Under the pieces are notes generated by a model. That model was given only the letters and a program-made list of their open reading frames with translations. It did no database searches and was not told the DNA's origin. A stretch of 64,000 bases of DNA from Alphaproteobacteria bacterium (GTDB taxonomy: Bacteria; Pseudomonadota; Alphaproteobacteria; UBA828), in contig WTGU01000077.1 in NCBI GenBank assembly GCA_011523425.1, positions 1 through 64,000 on the forward strand. The letters are read 5' to 3'. Both the position numbers and the translations under genes were made by a program. Position 1 is the stretch's first letter. Each line of letters starts with the position of its first letter. Below are positions 32,154 to 37,006 of this stretch, in pieces.

Positions 32154-33371
32154 GTGAACGGTATCCTCAAGGGCTTGCGTGTGGTCGAGGGCTCGGCCTT
32201 CGTCGCGGCCCCGCTCGGCGGCATGACGCTGGCCCAGATGGGGGCGGACGTGATCCGCTTCGATCCGCTCGGCGGCGGCCTCGACTACCGACGCTGGCCG
32301 GTCACGCCCGAGAACGAGAGCATCTACTGGGCCGGCATGAACAAGGGCAAGCGCTCCTTCGCGGTCAATCTGCGCGAGGCCGAGGGGCGCGAGCTGGTCG
32401 CGGCCCTCATCGCGGCGCCGGGGCCTGAGGCCGGCATTTTCCTCACCAACCTCCAGGTCGGCGACTGGCTCTCCTACGAGACGCTCCGCGCCAGGCGCGC
32501 CGATCTCATCATGCTCCGCATCATCGGCAACCCCGACGGCACGGTGGCGGTCGACTACACCGTGAACGCGCGCATGGGCTGGCCCTTCGTGACCGGGCCG
32601 GCGGAGCTCGACGAGCCGGTCAACAACGTCCTGCCGGGCTGGGACCTGACCTGCGGGCTCACCGCCGCCATCGGTCTGCTCGCCGCCGAGCGCCACCGCA
32701 GCCGCACCGGCGAGGGGCAGGACATCAGGCTCAGCCTCGCCGATGTCGCCTACCACATCACCGGCTCGCTCGGTTACATCGGCGACGTCGAGATCAACGG
32801 CGCCGAGCGGCCGCGCATCGGCAACGACATGTACGGCACCTTCGGCGGCGACTTCGCCACGCGGGACGGCCGCCGGGTCATGCTGGTGGTGGTGACGCCG
32901 CGCCACGTCAGGGCGCTGGGGCAGGCGAGCGGGCTAACGGAGACCTTCGCCGCCATCGAGGCGGAGCACGGCGTCGATCTCGCCGACGAGGCCGACCGCT
33001 GGACCGTGCGCAGCGAGCTCCGCGCGGCGCTGGAGCCCTGGTTCGCCTCGCTCGACCTGGACGAGATCGGCACCCGCCTCACCGAGGCGGGCGTGCTCTG
33101 GGGGCCGTTCCGCAGCCACAGCCAGATGGTGGCGGAGGACCCCTTCTGCACGACCGCGAACCCCCTGTTCCAGAGGATCGATCAGCCGGGAATCGGGCCT
33201 TTGCTCACGCCGGGCTCGCCGCTGGATTTCGCCGCCGCGCCGCGCAGGGCGGTCAAGCCGGGGCCCCGGCTCGGCGAGCATACCGACGAGATCCTGGCGG
33301 ACGTGCTGGGTCTCGGTGACGGCGCCATCGGCGCGCTGCACGAGCGCGGCATCGTCGCCGGGCCGGCCTAA
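32154..33371 (+). CDS. 2-methylfumaryl-CoA isomerase-like CaiB/BaiF CoA transferase
   Basis: This 405-residue family III CoA transferase begins GLRVVEGSAFVAAPLGG and continues MTLAQMGADVIRFDPLGGG. That opening is characteristic of the subgroup named 2-methylfumaryl-CoA isomerase (Mct, mesaconyl-CoA C1-C4 CoA transferase of the 3-hydroxypropionate bicycle). NKGKRSFAVNLRE and a distal GEHTDEIL are shared by the wider family. The catalytic Asp expected in the middle could not be assigned with certainty. The start is GTG at 32154 after GGGGAGGAGCG. No other gene of the bicycle is seen nearby, so a general role in C5 dicarboxylate-CoA metabolism is more likely. Confidence 0.75.
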   Translation: MNGILKGLRVVEGSAFVAAPLGGMTLAQMGADVIRFDPLGGGLDYRRWPVTPENESIYWAGMNKGKRSFAVNLREAEGRELVAALIAAPGPEAGIFLTNLQVGDWLSYETLRARRADLIMLRIIGNPDGTVAVDYTVNARMGWPFVTGPAELDEPVNNVLPGWDLTCGLTAAIGLLAAERHRSRTGEGQDIRLSLADVAYHITGSLGYIGDVEINGAERPRIGNDMYGTFGGDFATRDGRRVMLVVVTPRHVRALGQASGLTETFAAIEAEHGVDLADEADRWTVRSELRAALEPWFASLDLDEIGTRLTEAGVLWGPFRSHSQMVAEDPFCTTANPLFQRIDQPGIGPLLTPGSPLDFAAAPRRAVKPGPRLGEHTDEILADVLGLGDGAIGALHERGIVAGPA

Positions 33372-33378
33372 GCGCGGG

Positions 33379-33951
33379 TCAGACGCCCTCGACGAGCACC
33401 GCCTCGATCGGGGCCAGCCCGATGACCTGCGCCCGCGCCCTCCGGGAGTCGTCCGACCGGATCCACGCCCGCGCTTTCGCGGCGCTGTCGAACTCCAGAA
33501 CCGACACGCTTTCGCCGGGCCAGCCTCCCTCCCTGATCTCGAGCGTTCCCCCGGCGACGAGGACCCGCCCTCCGTCGGCTGCGGCTACGACGAGCTCGAG
33601 GTCGACTGCCGCATGGCAGACGACCAGATAGACGCTGCGCTCGCCCCTCGCGTCGCCGTCGCCATCAAGCAGGACGACGTTCCCGGTGGATGCCTGGTGG
33701 CGGATGGCGCGCGCTTCCACGTAGGCGGGCGACTCGTACCAGGCTGCGGCCCGCGCTGGGCTGTCGAACTGGAGCAGCACCAGACGCCCCGGCGTCCACG
33801 GGCCCTCGATCACCTCGTGCTCGCCGCCGCGCACGAGAAAGCGCCCGTCGAAGGCCGCGATGGTGTCCGGCGTCAGCGCCCGGTAGCCGGCATAGGTCTC
33901 CGGATCGGTGACGGTGACGTCGGCGATCACATAGCCTGGCACGGCGGGCAC
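33379..33951 (-). CDS. Tandem DUF1330 protein
   Basis: This 190-residue protein contains two successive ferredoxin-like DUF1330 modules. The first (about 1-96) has YVIADVTVTDPETYAGYR, the GRFLVRGGEHEVIEG turn and RLVLLQFDSPARAAAWYES. The second (about 105-190) repeats YLVVCHAAVDLELV, GRVLVAGGTLEIREGGW and VSVLEFDSAAKARAWI. Single-domain members form dimers, so this chain may be a covalent dimer. The start is GTG at 33951, 2 bases after the stop of the upstream dimethylformamidase-like gene, so they form an operon. No enzymatic role is known; a partner or monooxygenase-like function is speculative. Confidence 0.8.
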   Translation of the reverse strand: MPAVPGYVIADVTVTDPETYAGYRALTPDTIAAFDGRFLVRGGEHEVIEGPWTPGRLVLLQFDSPARAAAWYESPAYVEARAIRHQASTGNVVLLDGDGDARGERSVYLVVCHAAVDLELVVAAADGGRVLVAGGTLEIREGGWPGESVSVLEFDSAAKARAWIRSDDSRRARAQVIGLAPIEAVLVEGV

Positions 33952-33953
33952 CC

Positions 33954-36203
33954 TCAGATGGGTTCCGGGTCGGCGAAGCGGCGGAGCACGTTGGTCGTGA
34001 GCTTCGCGATGTTGTTGTCGTAGCCGTTCCACGGAAGGCTCGCGGGATAGCAGATGGAGCCCACGGAGAAGACCGCGCCGCCGTTCGGCGTCTCGTAGAA
34101 GACCATGTCGGCCCGCACCTTCTCGTGCTCGGTGCCGCCCATGCCGGAATGGTTCACCAGCATCTCCTCGTTCACCACCAGGTAGAGATCGGTGTGGTTC
34201 TCCGAGCGCGCGAGGACCAGCGCGTGCGGCGGCGTGCCGAGCCGGGGGTCGGCAGCATCGAGCTCGTTGCCGGCGGCGCCCTCGCCGTGGAAACCGAAAT
34301 CGCCGATCAGCTCGTCGTCGATCCCCTCGAAGACGAAGCGCGCTCGCGGATCGTGGCTCTCCGGCGTGCGTCGGTAGTAGGAGGACTTGTCGAAGCCCTC
34401 GGCGACGAAGCCGACGCCCGAGAGCCGCTGCGGCGCGGTATCGCCCTGGTGGCGCCAGAGCCCGCCATACTCGCCGGTGAAGCTGTGATAGTACTCGCCG
34501 GGGTCGGCCTCCCAGGTGCGGATCGCGGCCTCGCAGCGGCGCACCTCGATCACGCCCGGCAGCTCGCGGTGCATCGCCACCCGCCAGTAGAAGCCGTTGC
34601 CGCCGAGATACATGAGCCGCCCGCCCTGCTGGGTGAAGCCGTGGACGGCATCGCGCATGGCCTTGGAGTAGTATTCCGGGTGGCCGCCTGTGATCAGCAC
34701 GTCGTAGGATCCGAGCAGGTCGATGCCCTCGCGGTGGACGTCCTCGTCGGTGATGACGTCGTGCTCGAAGCCGAAGTGGGTGAGCCAGTCCACCACGTAC
34801 ATGTCGAGGATGAACTCGCGCGCGTTCGTGGCGTCCTCGCCGGCGCAGGCCCAGGGGGTCTCCACCTTCGGCCGCATGTTGAGGATCGGCCGCAGCCTCG
34901 ACGAATAGCAGATGCCGCTGCCGTCCGAATGGGTGTCGTAGAGCGAGGCGCCGTACTCGCGACGCTGGTTGAGGAAGAGCTGGTTGGGATTGAGCGTCGG
35001 CAGCTGGCCGGTGAGAAGCTCGGCGAGCGCGCCGTCGAATGCCATGTGCTCGTTGGCATAGGCCATGTACTCGACCGTCGGCAGCAGGAAGGCGATGCGC
35101 GCCTCCTTGCCGGGCGCCGGCAGCACCACGAAGGGCACGTATTCCTCCGCGTCCCTGGCCCTGAGCCGTGCGGCGTAGACCCCGCTCGCGGCGCGGGCCG
35201 GCACCGTCCATTCGAAATCGACCTCCCAGCCGGCGTCGTAGAGGTCGTCGTCGTGGAAGTGGATGGCGCCGTACTCGTGGCGGGCGTGACGCCAGCACAT
35301 CTCCTCGCCGGAGAAATTCCAGCCGGTCATGCCGCGTGCCGGCAGGTTGACGATCTCGCCGTGGCAGTGGTGGGAGGAACGGTCCGAGATCTTCACCGAC
35401 GTGATGTCGCGCGAGAAATCCCAGGCGCAAAGGATGTCCGGGGCCAGCGCCGCGGGCACCGCCTCGTTCCGCACGCGCTCGATGTCGAGCCGCCCCAGCG
35501 CGCGGCCGACCAGGCGGGGCGAATCGATCTTGCCGTTGTAGAGGCCGTCGACCAGCACGCGCCCCTTCTGTCGCCGCCTGAAGGTGGCGGCCATGACGAC
35601 GGGCGCGCCGCATCCGGCGGCGGTCGGCCCGACCTTGCGCGACGCCGTGCCGCCGTCGTCCACGCGCGCATAGGGTTGGAGCGGCTCCTGATGCACGGTG
35701 ATCGTGTTGCTACCTGCGTCGTAGCTGGCGGCCGCGAGATACCAGTGGCGCTCCAGCAGCGGCTTGCCCACCGAGACCGTTTCGACCGTGCCGTCCGCGA
35801 GGCCCAGCCTGAGCGCGACCGAGCCATCGTCGTCGATCACCAGCGCGAAGCCCGTGCGGCTGCGCGGATCCCACTTGGTGACGATGCCCTGCTCGCCCTT
35901 GCCGGGCGTGGTCGGCCAGATCATCGCCTGCACGGTGAAGCTCTCGAGGGTCTCGAGCAGCGGCCGGGTCTCCACCAGCGCGTAGGAGCCCGCGTGAATG
36001 GCCTGCCGGCGCCCCTTGTGGCGCTTGCTCACCGGCGTGGGGATCGCCCGTTCCTTGAAGCCGGGGCCGGAGGGAGAATCGTCGGCGCAGATCAGGCGCA
36101 CGATGTCCGCCCGGTAGCTCGGGTGCTCGCAGTTGACCATGAACCTGATGGTCTCGCCCGGTCTCGCGCTGAGCCGGTCGGAATAGCCGGTGATCGTCAA
36201 CAT
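33954..36203 (-). CDS. N,N-dimethylformamidase large (beta) subunit-like protein
   Basis: This 749-residue protein matches the architecture of the DMFase large subunit. A beta-sandwich/LamG-like region (about 80-265) is followed by a Trp-rich linker and a C-terminal Rossmann-like, amidotransferase-like domain (about 365-620). Known DMFases hold one iron with two Tyr and one Glu. Candidates here are Tyr379 or Tyr382 in PTVEYMAYANEH, Tyr422 or Tyr433, and Glu510 in GGHPEYYS, but the exact match is unconfirmed. The small alpha subunit found with known enzymes was not seen. The ATG at 36203 is used. A tandem DUF1330 gene is coupled downstream and a GST gene diverges upstream. Confidence 0.8.
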   Translation of the reverse strand: MLTITGYSDRLSARPGETIRFMVNCEHPSYRADIVRLICADDSPSGPGFKERAIPTPVSKRHKGRRQAIHAGSYALVETRPLLETLESFTVQAMIWPTTPGKGEQGIVTKWDPRSRTGFALVIDDDGSVALRLGLADGTVETVSVGKPLLERHWYLAAASYDAGSNTITVHQEPLQPYARVDDGGTASRKVGPTAAGCGAPVVMAATFRRRQKGRVLVDGLYNGKIDSPRLVGRALGRLDIERVRNEAVPAALAPDILCAWDFSRDITSVKISDRSSHHCHGEIVNLPARGMTGWNFSGEEMCWRHARHEYGAIHFHDDDLYDAGWEVDFEWTVPARAASGVYAARLRARDAEEYVPFVVLPAPGKEARIAFLLPTVEYMAYANEHMAFDGALAELLTGQLPTLNPNQLFLNQRREYGASLYDTHSDGSGICYSSRLRPILNMRPKVETPWACAGEDATNAREFILDMYVVDWLTHFGFEHDVITDEDVHREGIDLLGSYDVLITGGHPEYYSKAMRDAVHGFTQQGGRLMYLGGNGFYWRVAMHRELPGVIEVRRCEAAIRTWEADPGEYYHSFTGEYGGLWRHQGDTAPQRLSGVGFVAEGFDKSSYYRRTPESHDPRARFVFEGIDDELIGDFGFHGEGAAGNELDAADPRLGTPPHALVLARSENHTDLYLVVNEEMLVNHSGMGGTEHEKVRADMVFYETPNGGAVFSVGSICYPASLPWNGYDNNIAKLTTNVLRRFADPEPI

Positions 36204-36382
36204 GCCGCGCCTCCGCGCTGCGCCACGCTTGCCTGCCGCGAGCATAGTCAGCGCCCGGCAGGCGAACAACCGAGGGGCCGGGCTGCCGCCCGTGCAAGGC
36301 GGGCGCAGGATATGCGAGAGTGGCGGACAGCCGGGCAGGGGAGTCGCTGCCGCGGCCGCAGCCGGAACGAAGAGAGGGAACG

Positions 36383-37006
36383 ATGGCGACGCTGATACTC
36401 CACGGGATATCGCTGAGCACCTACGTCCGGACATGCCGCATGGCGTTTCTGGAGAAGGGCGTGCCCTACGAGCTCGATCCGCTCATGCCGCAATCGCCCG
36501 AGCAGAAGGAGAAGCAGCCCTGGGGCTCGGTGCCGGCCATGACCCACGGCGACGTGCGCATGTACGAGACGCTGGCGATCTGCGGCTACGTCGACCGCCT
36601 GTTCGACGGCCCGCCCGTGCTGCCGGAAGACCCGCTCGCCAACGCCCGCTGCCTGCAGTGGACATCGGTCTTCATCCAGTATCTCTACCGGCCGGCGATC
36701 GACATCGTCCTTCAGCGTCTGATCGTGCCCGCACAGGGCGGCGAGCCCGACGAGGCGCTGGTGGCGAGCAGCGTGCCCAAGTCCGACAAGGCGCTCGCCG
36801 CGCTCGACGGCGCGCTGGAAGGGCAGGCCTGCTTCGCCGGCGGCGACGCTTCGCTCGCCGATTACATGGTGCTGCCCGTGCTCCACTATCTGAAGATGAC
36901 GCCGGAGGGCGAGGGCCTGCTCGCGCCGAGGGCCAATCTCGCCCGCTGGCAGGCCGCCATCGACGAGCGCCCGAGCGCGGTGGAGACGCTGCCCGACCTG
37001 GGCTGA
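36383..37006 (+). CDS. Glutathione S-transferase family protein
   Basis: This 207-residue protein has an N-terminal thioredoxin-like half with TLILHGISLSTYVRTCRMAFLEKG, a cis-Pro segment SVPAMTHGD, and YETLAICGYVDRLF, which contacts glutathione through its Glu-Thr pair (the usual Glu-Ser). The helical C-terminal half ends with the DASLADYMVLPVLHYL N-capping-box region. The ATG at 36383 follows AGAGAGGGAACG. The gene diverges from the dimethylformamidase-like gene across 179 bases and converges with pstS. The substrate is unknown. The close divergence suggests shared regulation, but no operator is evident. Confidence 0.88.
   Translation: MATLILHGISLSTYVRTCRMAFLEKGVPYELDPLMPQSPEQKEKQPWGSVPAMTHGDVRMYETLAICGYVDRLFDGPPVLPEDPLANARCLQWTSVFIQYLYRPAIDIVLQRLIVPAQGGEPDEALVASSVPKSDKALAALDGALEGQACFAGGDASLADYMVLPVLHYLKMTPEGEGLLAPRANLARWQAAIDERPSAVETLPDLG

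Follow-up and report, generated by a model that had tools for sequence, protein, structure and literature searches.

In a 64,000-nucleotide stretch of alphaproteobacterial DNA (the window), a gene for a large amidohydrolase stands next to a DUF1330 gene and lacks the small-subunit gene that accompanies most of its relatives. On balance, we lean towards a model in which this gene encodes an iron-dependent one-subunit amidohydrolase of the DmfA2/PF20254 type that has lost its small subunit and is probably expressed together with the DUF1330 gene resident at the site. The genes concerned are listed below.

Table. Features of the window around the large amidohydrolase gene
Feature	Position	Strand	Basis or remark
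CoA-transferase III, convergent; probably the older neighbour of the DUF1330 gene	32154..33371	+	2-methylfumaryl-CoA isomerase-like, 523 bits, which falls below the cut-off of that model (725)
Tandem DUF1330 protein, 187 aa from the most likely start (190 aa from GTG at 33951)	33379..33942	-	PF07045, orthologue starts
Dimethylformamidase (DMFase) large-subunit-like amidohydrolase, 749 aa	33954..36203	-	Pfam, phmmer, alignment, AlphaFold model
Intergenic space, large gene to GST	36204..36382		Place of the small subunit in most relatives
Glutathione S-transferase (GST)-like protein, 207 aa, divergent from the large gene	36383..37006	+	Open frame, Pfam

The large protein is a member of the DMFase superfamily. 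It scores 333.5 bits against PF20254 (DMFA2_C; cut-off 27), and phmmer aligns its residues 3-748 with the DMFase large chain in 6lvb (E 7.2e-166) and nearly its full length with 8huy (E 2.5e-148). Its AlphaFold model (mean pLDDT 82.8; model range 1-749) has the overall fold of 6lvb_A in all domains (Z 47.6, 706 residues, 2.4 Å) and is similarly matched by 8huy_A (Z 46.2, 679 residues, 2.9 Å). The predicted iron ligands Y382, Y422 and E510 align with Y399, Y440 and E521 of DMFase, while H508, N536 and E647 align with its essential H519, N547 and E657; all 39 rows of the large-protein alignment share Y382, Y422, H508, E510 and E647. Thus, an earlier note, made from the letters of this DNA alone, was right to see here a homologue of the DMFase large subunit that keeps the Tyr/Tyr/Glu iron ligands. 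V683 occupies the position of the DMFase gate residue F693, which is a weak criterion for DMFase because just 14 of the 70 family rows have Phe there. The gene is under purifying selection, with dN/dS values of 0.09-0.26 (window, L010, L011, L012 and L035), and the five orthologous sequences compared contain no internal stops.

A profile (A1) built from 40 recognisable small subunits detected none in the 64-kb window among open frames of at least 25 aa at E <= 10. In the whole genome, it matched six places. Four are full-length small-subunit genes that each immediately precede another large gene; the fifth is a weak copy (2.1e-6) lying downstream of one of these four large genes, and the sixth match (E 0.565) was taken as noise. 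In other words, four of the five large genes in this genome have a small subunit upstream, the window gene is the exception, and the profile search of the genome gave no unpaired small-subunit gene with which the window gene could form the small/large pair of a two-subunit DMFase. The earlier note had seen no small subunit and had named, as a result that would speak against its reading, a strictly co-occurring gene for one at another place in the genome; no such unpaired copy emerged. Because the searches covered the frames of window and genome alike, we rejected the possibility that the small subunit is absent merely through annotation. P0009, the only small subunit scanned against Pfam, had no match at 1e-5.

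The arrangement in the window recurs among relatives. We surveyed 22 genomes of the order with 89 large-gene places, some of which represent a single gene split between two contigs. A small subunit is upstream at 65 of these places, none of which has DUF1330 downstream; DUF1330 is downstream at 12, none of which has a small subunit upstream on the large-gene strand; and 12 have neither. The search for DUF1330 genes used P0002 at E 1e-8, a threshold that very divergent ones could escape. The conserved pairing of the large gene with DUF1330, which the earlier note had suggested looking for, is therefore real, being present in 12 of the 22 genomes and in two genera. Two of the 12 paired places are cut by contig ends (G016:C158 and G025:C291); the rest of the G025:C291 large gene is probably L040, on another contig, where the GST and no small subunit lies upstream. 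The order is kept in orthologues of five other genomes (L010, L011, L012, L035 and L038+L040) and, together with the dN/dS values of the large gene, argues against both chance and decay. Outside the window clade, the small subunit is upstream on the same strand at 36 of 36 examined loci, and likewise at all four plasmid loci fetched from the 157 plasmid records with a match.

In midpoint-rooted trees, the ten DUF1330-paired large proteins long enough to be placed form one clade (support 95/85) nested inside small-subunit-bearing lineages, pointing to one event and not twelve. L037, the sister row, carries a small subunit and lies on a contig that ends inside the large gene; two-subunit relatives are 63-64% identical to the window clade. 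Based on this tree, a single loss of the small subunit would have occurred in the lineage, no later than the common ancestor of the two genera. At the loosest threshold, the window clade has eight clade-specific changes at otherwise conserved positions, compared to 18, 4, 21, 24, 0 and 1 in six control clades, of which the one with 24 is a g6 pair that likewise lacks an adjacent small gene. Thus, the changes are not in excess over the controls and, as judged without a contact map, no remodelled interface is visible, which counts against a one-subunit enzyme.

The neighbouring protein matches PF07045 in two stretches (154.9 bits; cut-off 23) and is predicted to fold into two alpha/beta domains in a single chain. 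The earlier note had this gene start 2 bases after the large-gene stop. A GTG is indeed present 2 nt past that stop, at 33951, but in all five orthologues read (L010, L011, L012, L035 and L038) the gene opens at a homologous ATG 11 nt past it, so that the GTG at 33942 most likely represents the true start in the window. The AGGG ribosome-binding site overlaps the large-gene stop, and the two genes are likely co-expressed. The N-terminal half is conserved (dN/dS 0.03-0.32), whereas the C-terminal half evolves fast (dN/dS 0.18-1.01). The single-domain structures of DUF1330 proteins from Agrobacterium (Atu0297; 2fiu) and Colwellia psychrerythraea (3lo3), both of unknown function, each match one domain of the tandem protein and are Foldseek ranks 1 and 2 for it, with 2fiu also found by sequence (E 1.6e-09); unlike them, the window protein has two domains per chain, the second half being degenerate. 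A comparison with the small-subunit profile led us to reject the idea that DUF1330 is a hidden small-subunit homologue (hhalign probability 1.1% over 26 columns). In genera g2, g3, g4 and g6, DUF1330 adjoins the CoA-transferase gene with no large gene there and, therefore, DUF1330 probably occupied the site before the large gene.

On the other side of the large gene, the earlier note correctly described a GST gene diverging from it and counted this gene as part of the set, a claim that our comparison does not support. Among the fetched loci, a GST has this place in genus g1 only; the six loci fetched from g5 showed none (in L151, the flank is off the contig), and in the three g5 loci whose flank was read another gene is there, in one of the three a Cys/Met PLP enzyme (Pfam). 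We therefore rejected the GST as part of the large-DUF1330 unit, to which it probably does not belong. In the intergenic space, a TTGTTC-17-TATGCT element facing the large gene was seen by eye to be identical in the window and three orthologues; a promoter scan of this space upstream of the large gene gave no match at the threshold of the tool.

Two members of the superfamily with solved structures bear differently on how the large protein works. DMFase from Paracoccus sp. strain DMF (6lvb; PMC7686228) has in common with the window protein nearly full-length homology, the fold, the 2-Tyr-1-Glu iron site and the essential His/Asn/Glu; however, it has a paired small subunit and the gate Phe693, while the window protein has no adjacent small subunit and a Val. 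In that study, the Paracoccus large subunit was inactive alone and needed the small subunit. N-acetyl-(R)-beta-phenylalanine acylase (8huy, 8i59 and 8i5a) also shares superfamily, fold and ligands, and for its entries our searches gave large-type chains only, with no chain matching the small-subunit profile. The statement in the earlier note that known enzymes need a small subunit is valid for DMFase and is weakened by the acylase entries. The acylase, reportedly described from a Burkholderia strain, is said to be active without a small subunit. It nevertheless gives no direct evidence for the window clade, because it is a distant lineage (end branch >2 changes per site) outside the group enclosing that clade; the two share no common branch, the window clade lying among small-subunit-bearing rows and the acylase, a long row whose exact place is unsure, far away.

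In the one-subunit model, the large protein would most likely bind one iron via Y382, Y422 and E510. The metal and E647 would activate water, H508 would also be essential, and N536 would hold the oxyanion during hydrolysis of an amide or N-acyl bond, all without any small subunit. The presence of Val683 where DMFase has its gate Phe693 hints at a substrate that exceeds DMF in size, and the two-domain DUF1330 protein may handle substrate or product.

The inactivity of the Paracoccus large subunit alone speaks against this model and would suit a large protein that still needs a small subunit, borrowed in trans from a paralogous pair of the same genome, which we consider rather unlikely. The genome has four full-length small-subunit genes to lend, but each adjoins its own large gene, and the small subunits differ strongly between paralogues: compared with P0009, the nearest in type to the window clade, those of this genome show 27-40% identity, and only L013 reaches 71%. 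In the L011 orthologue, the far side of the GST closely adjoins a small subunit, on the opposite strand, and another, related large gene; this favours borrowing over a one-subunit enzyme, but the five large genes of the window genome include none of the L011/L013 type. Large and small genes also occur apart: in two g6 genomes, a large gene has no small gene next to it, and a small gene elsewhere stands without a large gene of its own. The census has six small-subunit places with no large gene beside them. Two are in pair-bearing genomes: behind G015:C315 comes a large gene that is truncated where the contig stops, and G025:C73 is itself truncated in this way. Two more are the g6 cases, namely G024:C399, behind which a large gene begins before the contig runs out, and G023:C109, ~200 nt from the contig start. 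Finally, several loops of the large-protein model, among them the V683 loop, have low confidence, as would also be expected if a partner chain were missing.

Replacement of the small subunit by the DUF1330 protein as physical partner of the large protein, close to what the earlier note proposed, is in our estimate improbable. An upstream small subunit and a downstream DUF1330 gene are mutually exclusive (65/0 versus 0/12 in 22 genomes), the two genes are tightly spaced with the ribosome-binding site over the large-gene stop, and the pair persists in two genera that differ in the other flank. Against this stand the single clade, and hence one event, the lack of small-subunit homology by profile, the probable earlier presence of DUF1330 beside the CoA-transferase, the fast-evolving C-terminal half and the presence of DUF1330 as one to three separate genes in g5. 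That the lineage swapped its ancestral small subunit for the resident two-domain DUF1330 protein specifically to cap or feed the iron-amidase active site is, we believe, very doubtful. A decaying or non-catalytic remnant left by small-subunit loss would be compatible with the low-confidence loops and with the need of characterised DMFase for its small subunit (PMC7686228), but is hardly credible given the retained ligands and essential residues, the five orthologous sequences without stops and the dN/dS of 0.09-0.26.

A clade that is without the small subunit and yet keeps the catalytic set under purifying selection represents a natural experiment on the purpose of the small subunit, resting on the contrast with the published DMFase large subunit, inactive alone, and with two-subunit relatives at 63-64% identity. 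DUF1330, a named domain of unknown function, gains a testable gene partner and, if an exchange of the small subunit for DUF1330 were true, this would be the first biochemical role for DUF1330.

A sequence search matched the window's large protein to the large chain of Paracoccus dimethylformamidase (DMFase) over residues 3-748 (E 7.2e-166), and the sole other solved relative at E <= 0.1 was N-acetyl-(R)-beta-phenylalanine acylase (residues 1-744, E 2.5e-148); in Pfam, a concanavalin-like domain scored slightly under the cut-off. The AlphaFold model of the protein (mean pLDDT 82.8) matched the DMFase chain 6lvb_A with Z 47.6 over 706 residues and the acylase chain 8huy_A with Z 46.2 over 679 residues, while the structures ranked after these two had Z < 20 over only about 160-220 residues.

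Features of the large-gene region in the window
Feature	Coordinates	Strand	Remarks
CoA-transferase III gene	32154-33371	plus	
Tandem DUF1330 gene	33379-33942	minus	
Large gene	33954-36203	minus	749 aa; PF20254 DMFA2_C, 333.5 bits
GST-like gene	36383-37006	plus	

In the DMFase study (PMC7686228), the iron ligands are Y399, Y440 and E521, and variants of Y440, E521, H519, N547 and E657 were inactive. In our alignment, the window equivalents of Y399, Y440, E521, H519, N547 and E657 are Y382, Y422, E510, H508, N536 and E647, respectively. Y382, Y422, H508, E510 and E647 are unchanged in 39 of 39 aligned relatives, and the N547 position is N in 58 of 70 rows and D in 12. The DMFase gate residue Phe693 is Val in the window protein and Phe in just 14 of the 70 rows. 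By homology to DMFase, iron would be bound by two tyrosinates and one glutamate, the metal and Glu647 would activate water, Asn536 would stabilise the oxyanion, and His508 would be essential.

Divergent small subunits were recovered next to four plasmid-borne large genes, and a small-subunit profile was built, together with A1, an alignment of 29 sequences. A1 found the small chain of the DMFase structures (E 1.3e-17) and matched no chain in the acylase entries. P0009, the sole small subunit scanned, had no Pfam match. Among 42 loci from a protein search, all 36 outside the window clade are preceded by a same-strand small-subunit gene within 171 nt, and none has a DUF1330 match in the fetched flanks. 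The six remaining loci, from five genomes, lack a same-strand upstream small subunit, two of them (L035 and L038) being cut on that side. At one locus, L011, a small subunit lies on the opposite strand, directly past the GST gene, and precedes a second large gene whose product is 63% identical to the window's (the two genes span L011:4529-7206); this second type recurs at a separate place, L013, in the genome to which L038 and L040 belong. The profile search found no small subunit within the 64-kb window. Five large genes lie in the window's own genome (99.25% complete, 159 contigs). All of them except the window gene are immediately preceded by a small subunit, and profile search of the 159 contigs found no unpaired full-length small subunit.

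A census of gene order in 22 genomes of the order, made by joining coordinates, covered 89 large-gene places, 71 small-subunit matches and 41 DUF1330 places; ten extra weak small-subunit matches, each downstream of a large gene and occurring in 10 of the 22 genomes, were excluded. A small subunit lies upstream on the same strand at 65 of the 89 places, with DUF1330 downstream in 0 of 65; DUF1330 lies downstream at 12 places, with a small subunit upstream in 0 of 12; and neither is present at the other 12, about seven of which are partial. The 12 DUF1330-paired places represent 12 genomes, six of genus g1 (including the window) and six of g5. In the two other g1 genomes, a contig end falls inside a tandem DUF1330 gene (G024, 92% complete) or no DUF1330 match was found (G023, 62% complete). 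In a class-wide sample of 385 genomes (E <= 1e-230), where the two best-scoring candidates of each genome shown were compared, identity above 60% to the window's large gene occurred only in its own genome and two g5 genomes. A tree of 49 large proteins groups the ten DUF1330-paired rows in a single clade (support 95/85) nested within small-subunit-bearing rows, with L037 as sister and the second L011 copy and L013 next; the acylase is distant from this clade. Because the paired rows are one clade nested in this way, the simplest reading for this part of the tree is that the clade lost the small subunit once. Therefore, the 65/0 versus 0/12 counts do not represent twelve independent cases. On other branches, g6 and g2 likewise have large genes with no small gene next to them.

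DMFase-type large genes are abundant in the order: each of the 22 genomes searched carries them, at 1-9 places. One paralogue type has a small subunit upstream and an extra gene directly downstream that weakly matches the small-subunit profile (e.g. G000:C145:1480-1653 at L056; L007:4425-4886); the match on the Aminobacter plasmid has E 0.038. Tandem large genes with one small-subunit gene ahead of the first occur at G002:C153:1873-5636 (L068, L080). In two g6 genomes, one small-subunit gene lacks its large gene (G018:C67:1656-1964, L160; G019:C25:29932-30258, L159) and, elsewhere, one large gene has no small gene beside it (L153, L154); behind the small gene of L160 come an apparent ABC-transporter gene and, farther on, apparent urease genes (by eye). 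L026, from a metagenome bin titled Klebsiella pneumoniae, has a large gene that clusters with gammaproteobacterial bins, and the label is probably wrong.

In g1, DUF1330 is a two-domain fusion, whereas the large gene of g5 is followed by a row of one to three genes that each encode a single domain. A convergent DUF1330-CoA-transferase pair without a large gene there is found in g2, g3, g4 and g6 (six loci). In the CoA-transferase tree, from which g2 was left out, g4 and g6 are apart from the g1/g3/g5 group (support 98/96). The opposite flank in g3, g4 and g5 encodes a PLP enzyme of the Cys/Met type, as tested with Pfam on one g5 protein and judged by eye for the rest. In the simplest history, the large gene came to lie ahead of an already resident DUF1330 gene; alternatively, it may have been lost from the other genera, g3 in particular. 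The DUF1330 start was earlier placed 2 nt past the large stop, which is unlikely because all five g1 orthologues read use an ATG at 11 nt, where the window has GTG; in these orthologues AGGG or AGGA overlaps the stop. Expression of the two genes may be coupled, as suggested by their short separation and by the ribosome-binding site that overlaps the stop. The sequence TTGTTC-17-TATGCT, directed toward the large gene in 36204-36382, is identical in the window, L010, L011 and L012 (by eye).

In DMFase, the small subunit contributes to stability and forms part of the substrate entrance (PMC7686228). For the window's large protein, this role must fall to the large protein, to DUF1330 or to a small subunit borrowed in trans. 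The large protein itself is the most likely of the three, because the acylase structure provides a precedent and the own genome has no unpaired small subunit; our confidence is only moderate, since no clear remodelling is visible in the sequence of the large protein. The earlier note suggested that DUF1330 may be the partner; a role as replacement subunit is possible, yet the evidence against it outweighs that in favour. In the g1 fusion, dN/dS indicates that the N-terminal half is constrained (0.03-0.32) and the C-terminal half much less so (0.18-1.01). The DUF1330 model (mean pLDDT 90.7) has two predicted alpha/beta domains; it matches 2fiu and 3lo3, both DUF1330 structures, best, and next come proteins with two domains, among them coproheme decarboxylase and putative monooxygenases. 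Profile comparison showed no relationship between DUF1330 and the small subunit. Overall, the pairing of the large gene with DUF1330 is real and conserved in one bacterial family, if slightly unusual, and the large protein is a new variant within a known kind of enzyme.
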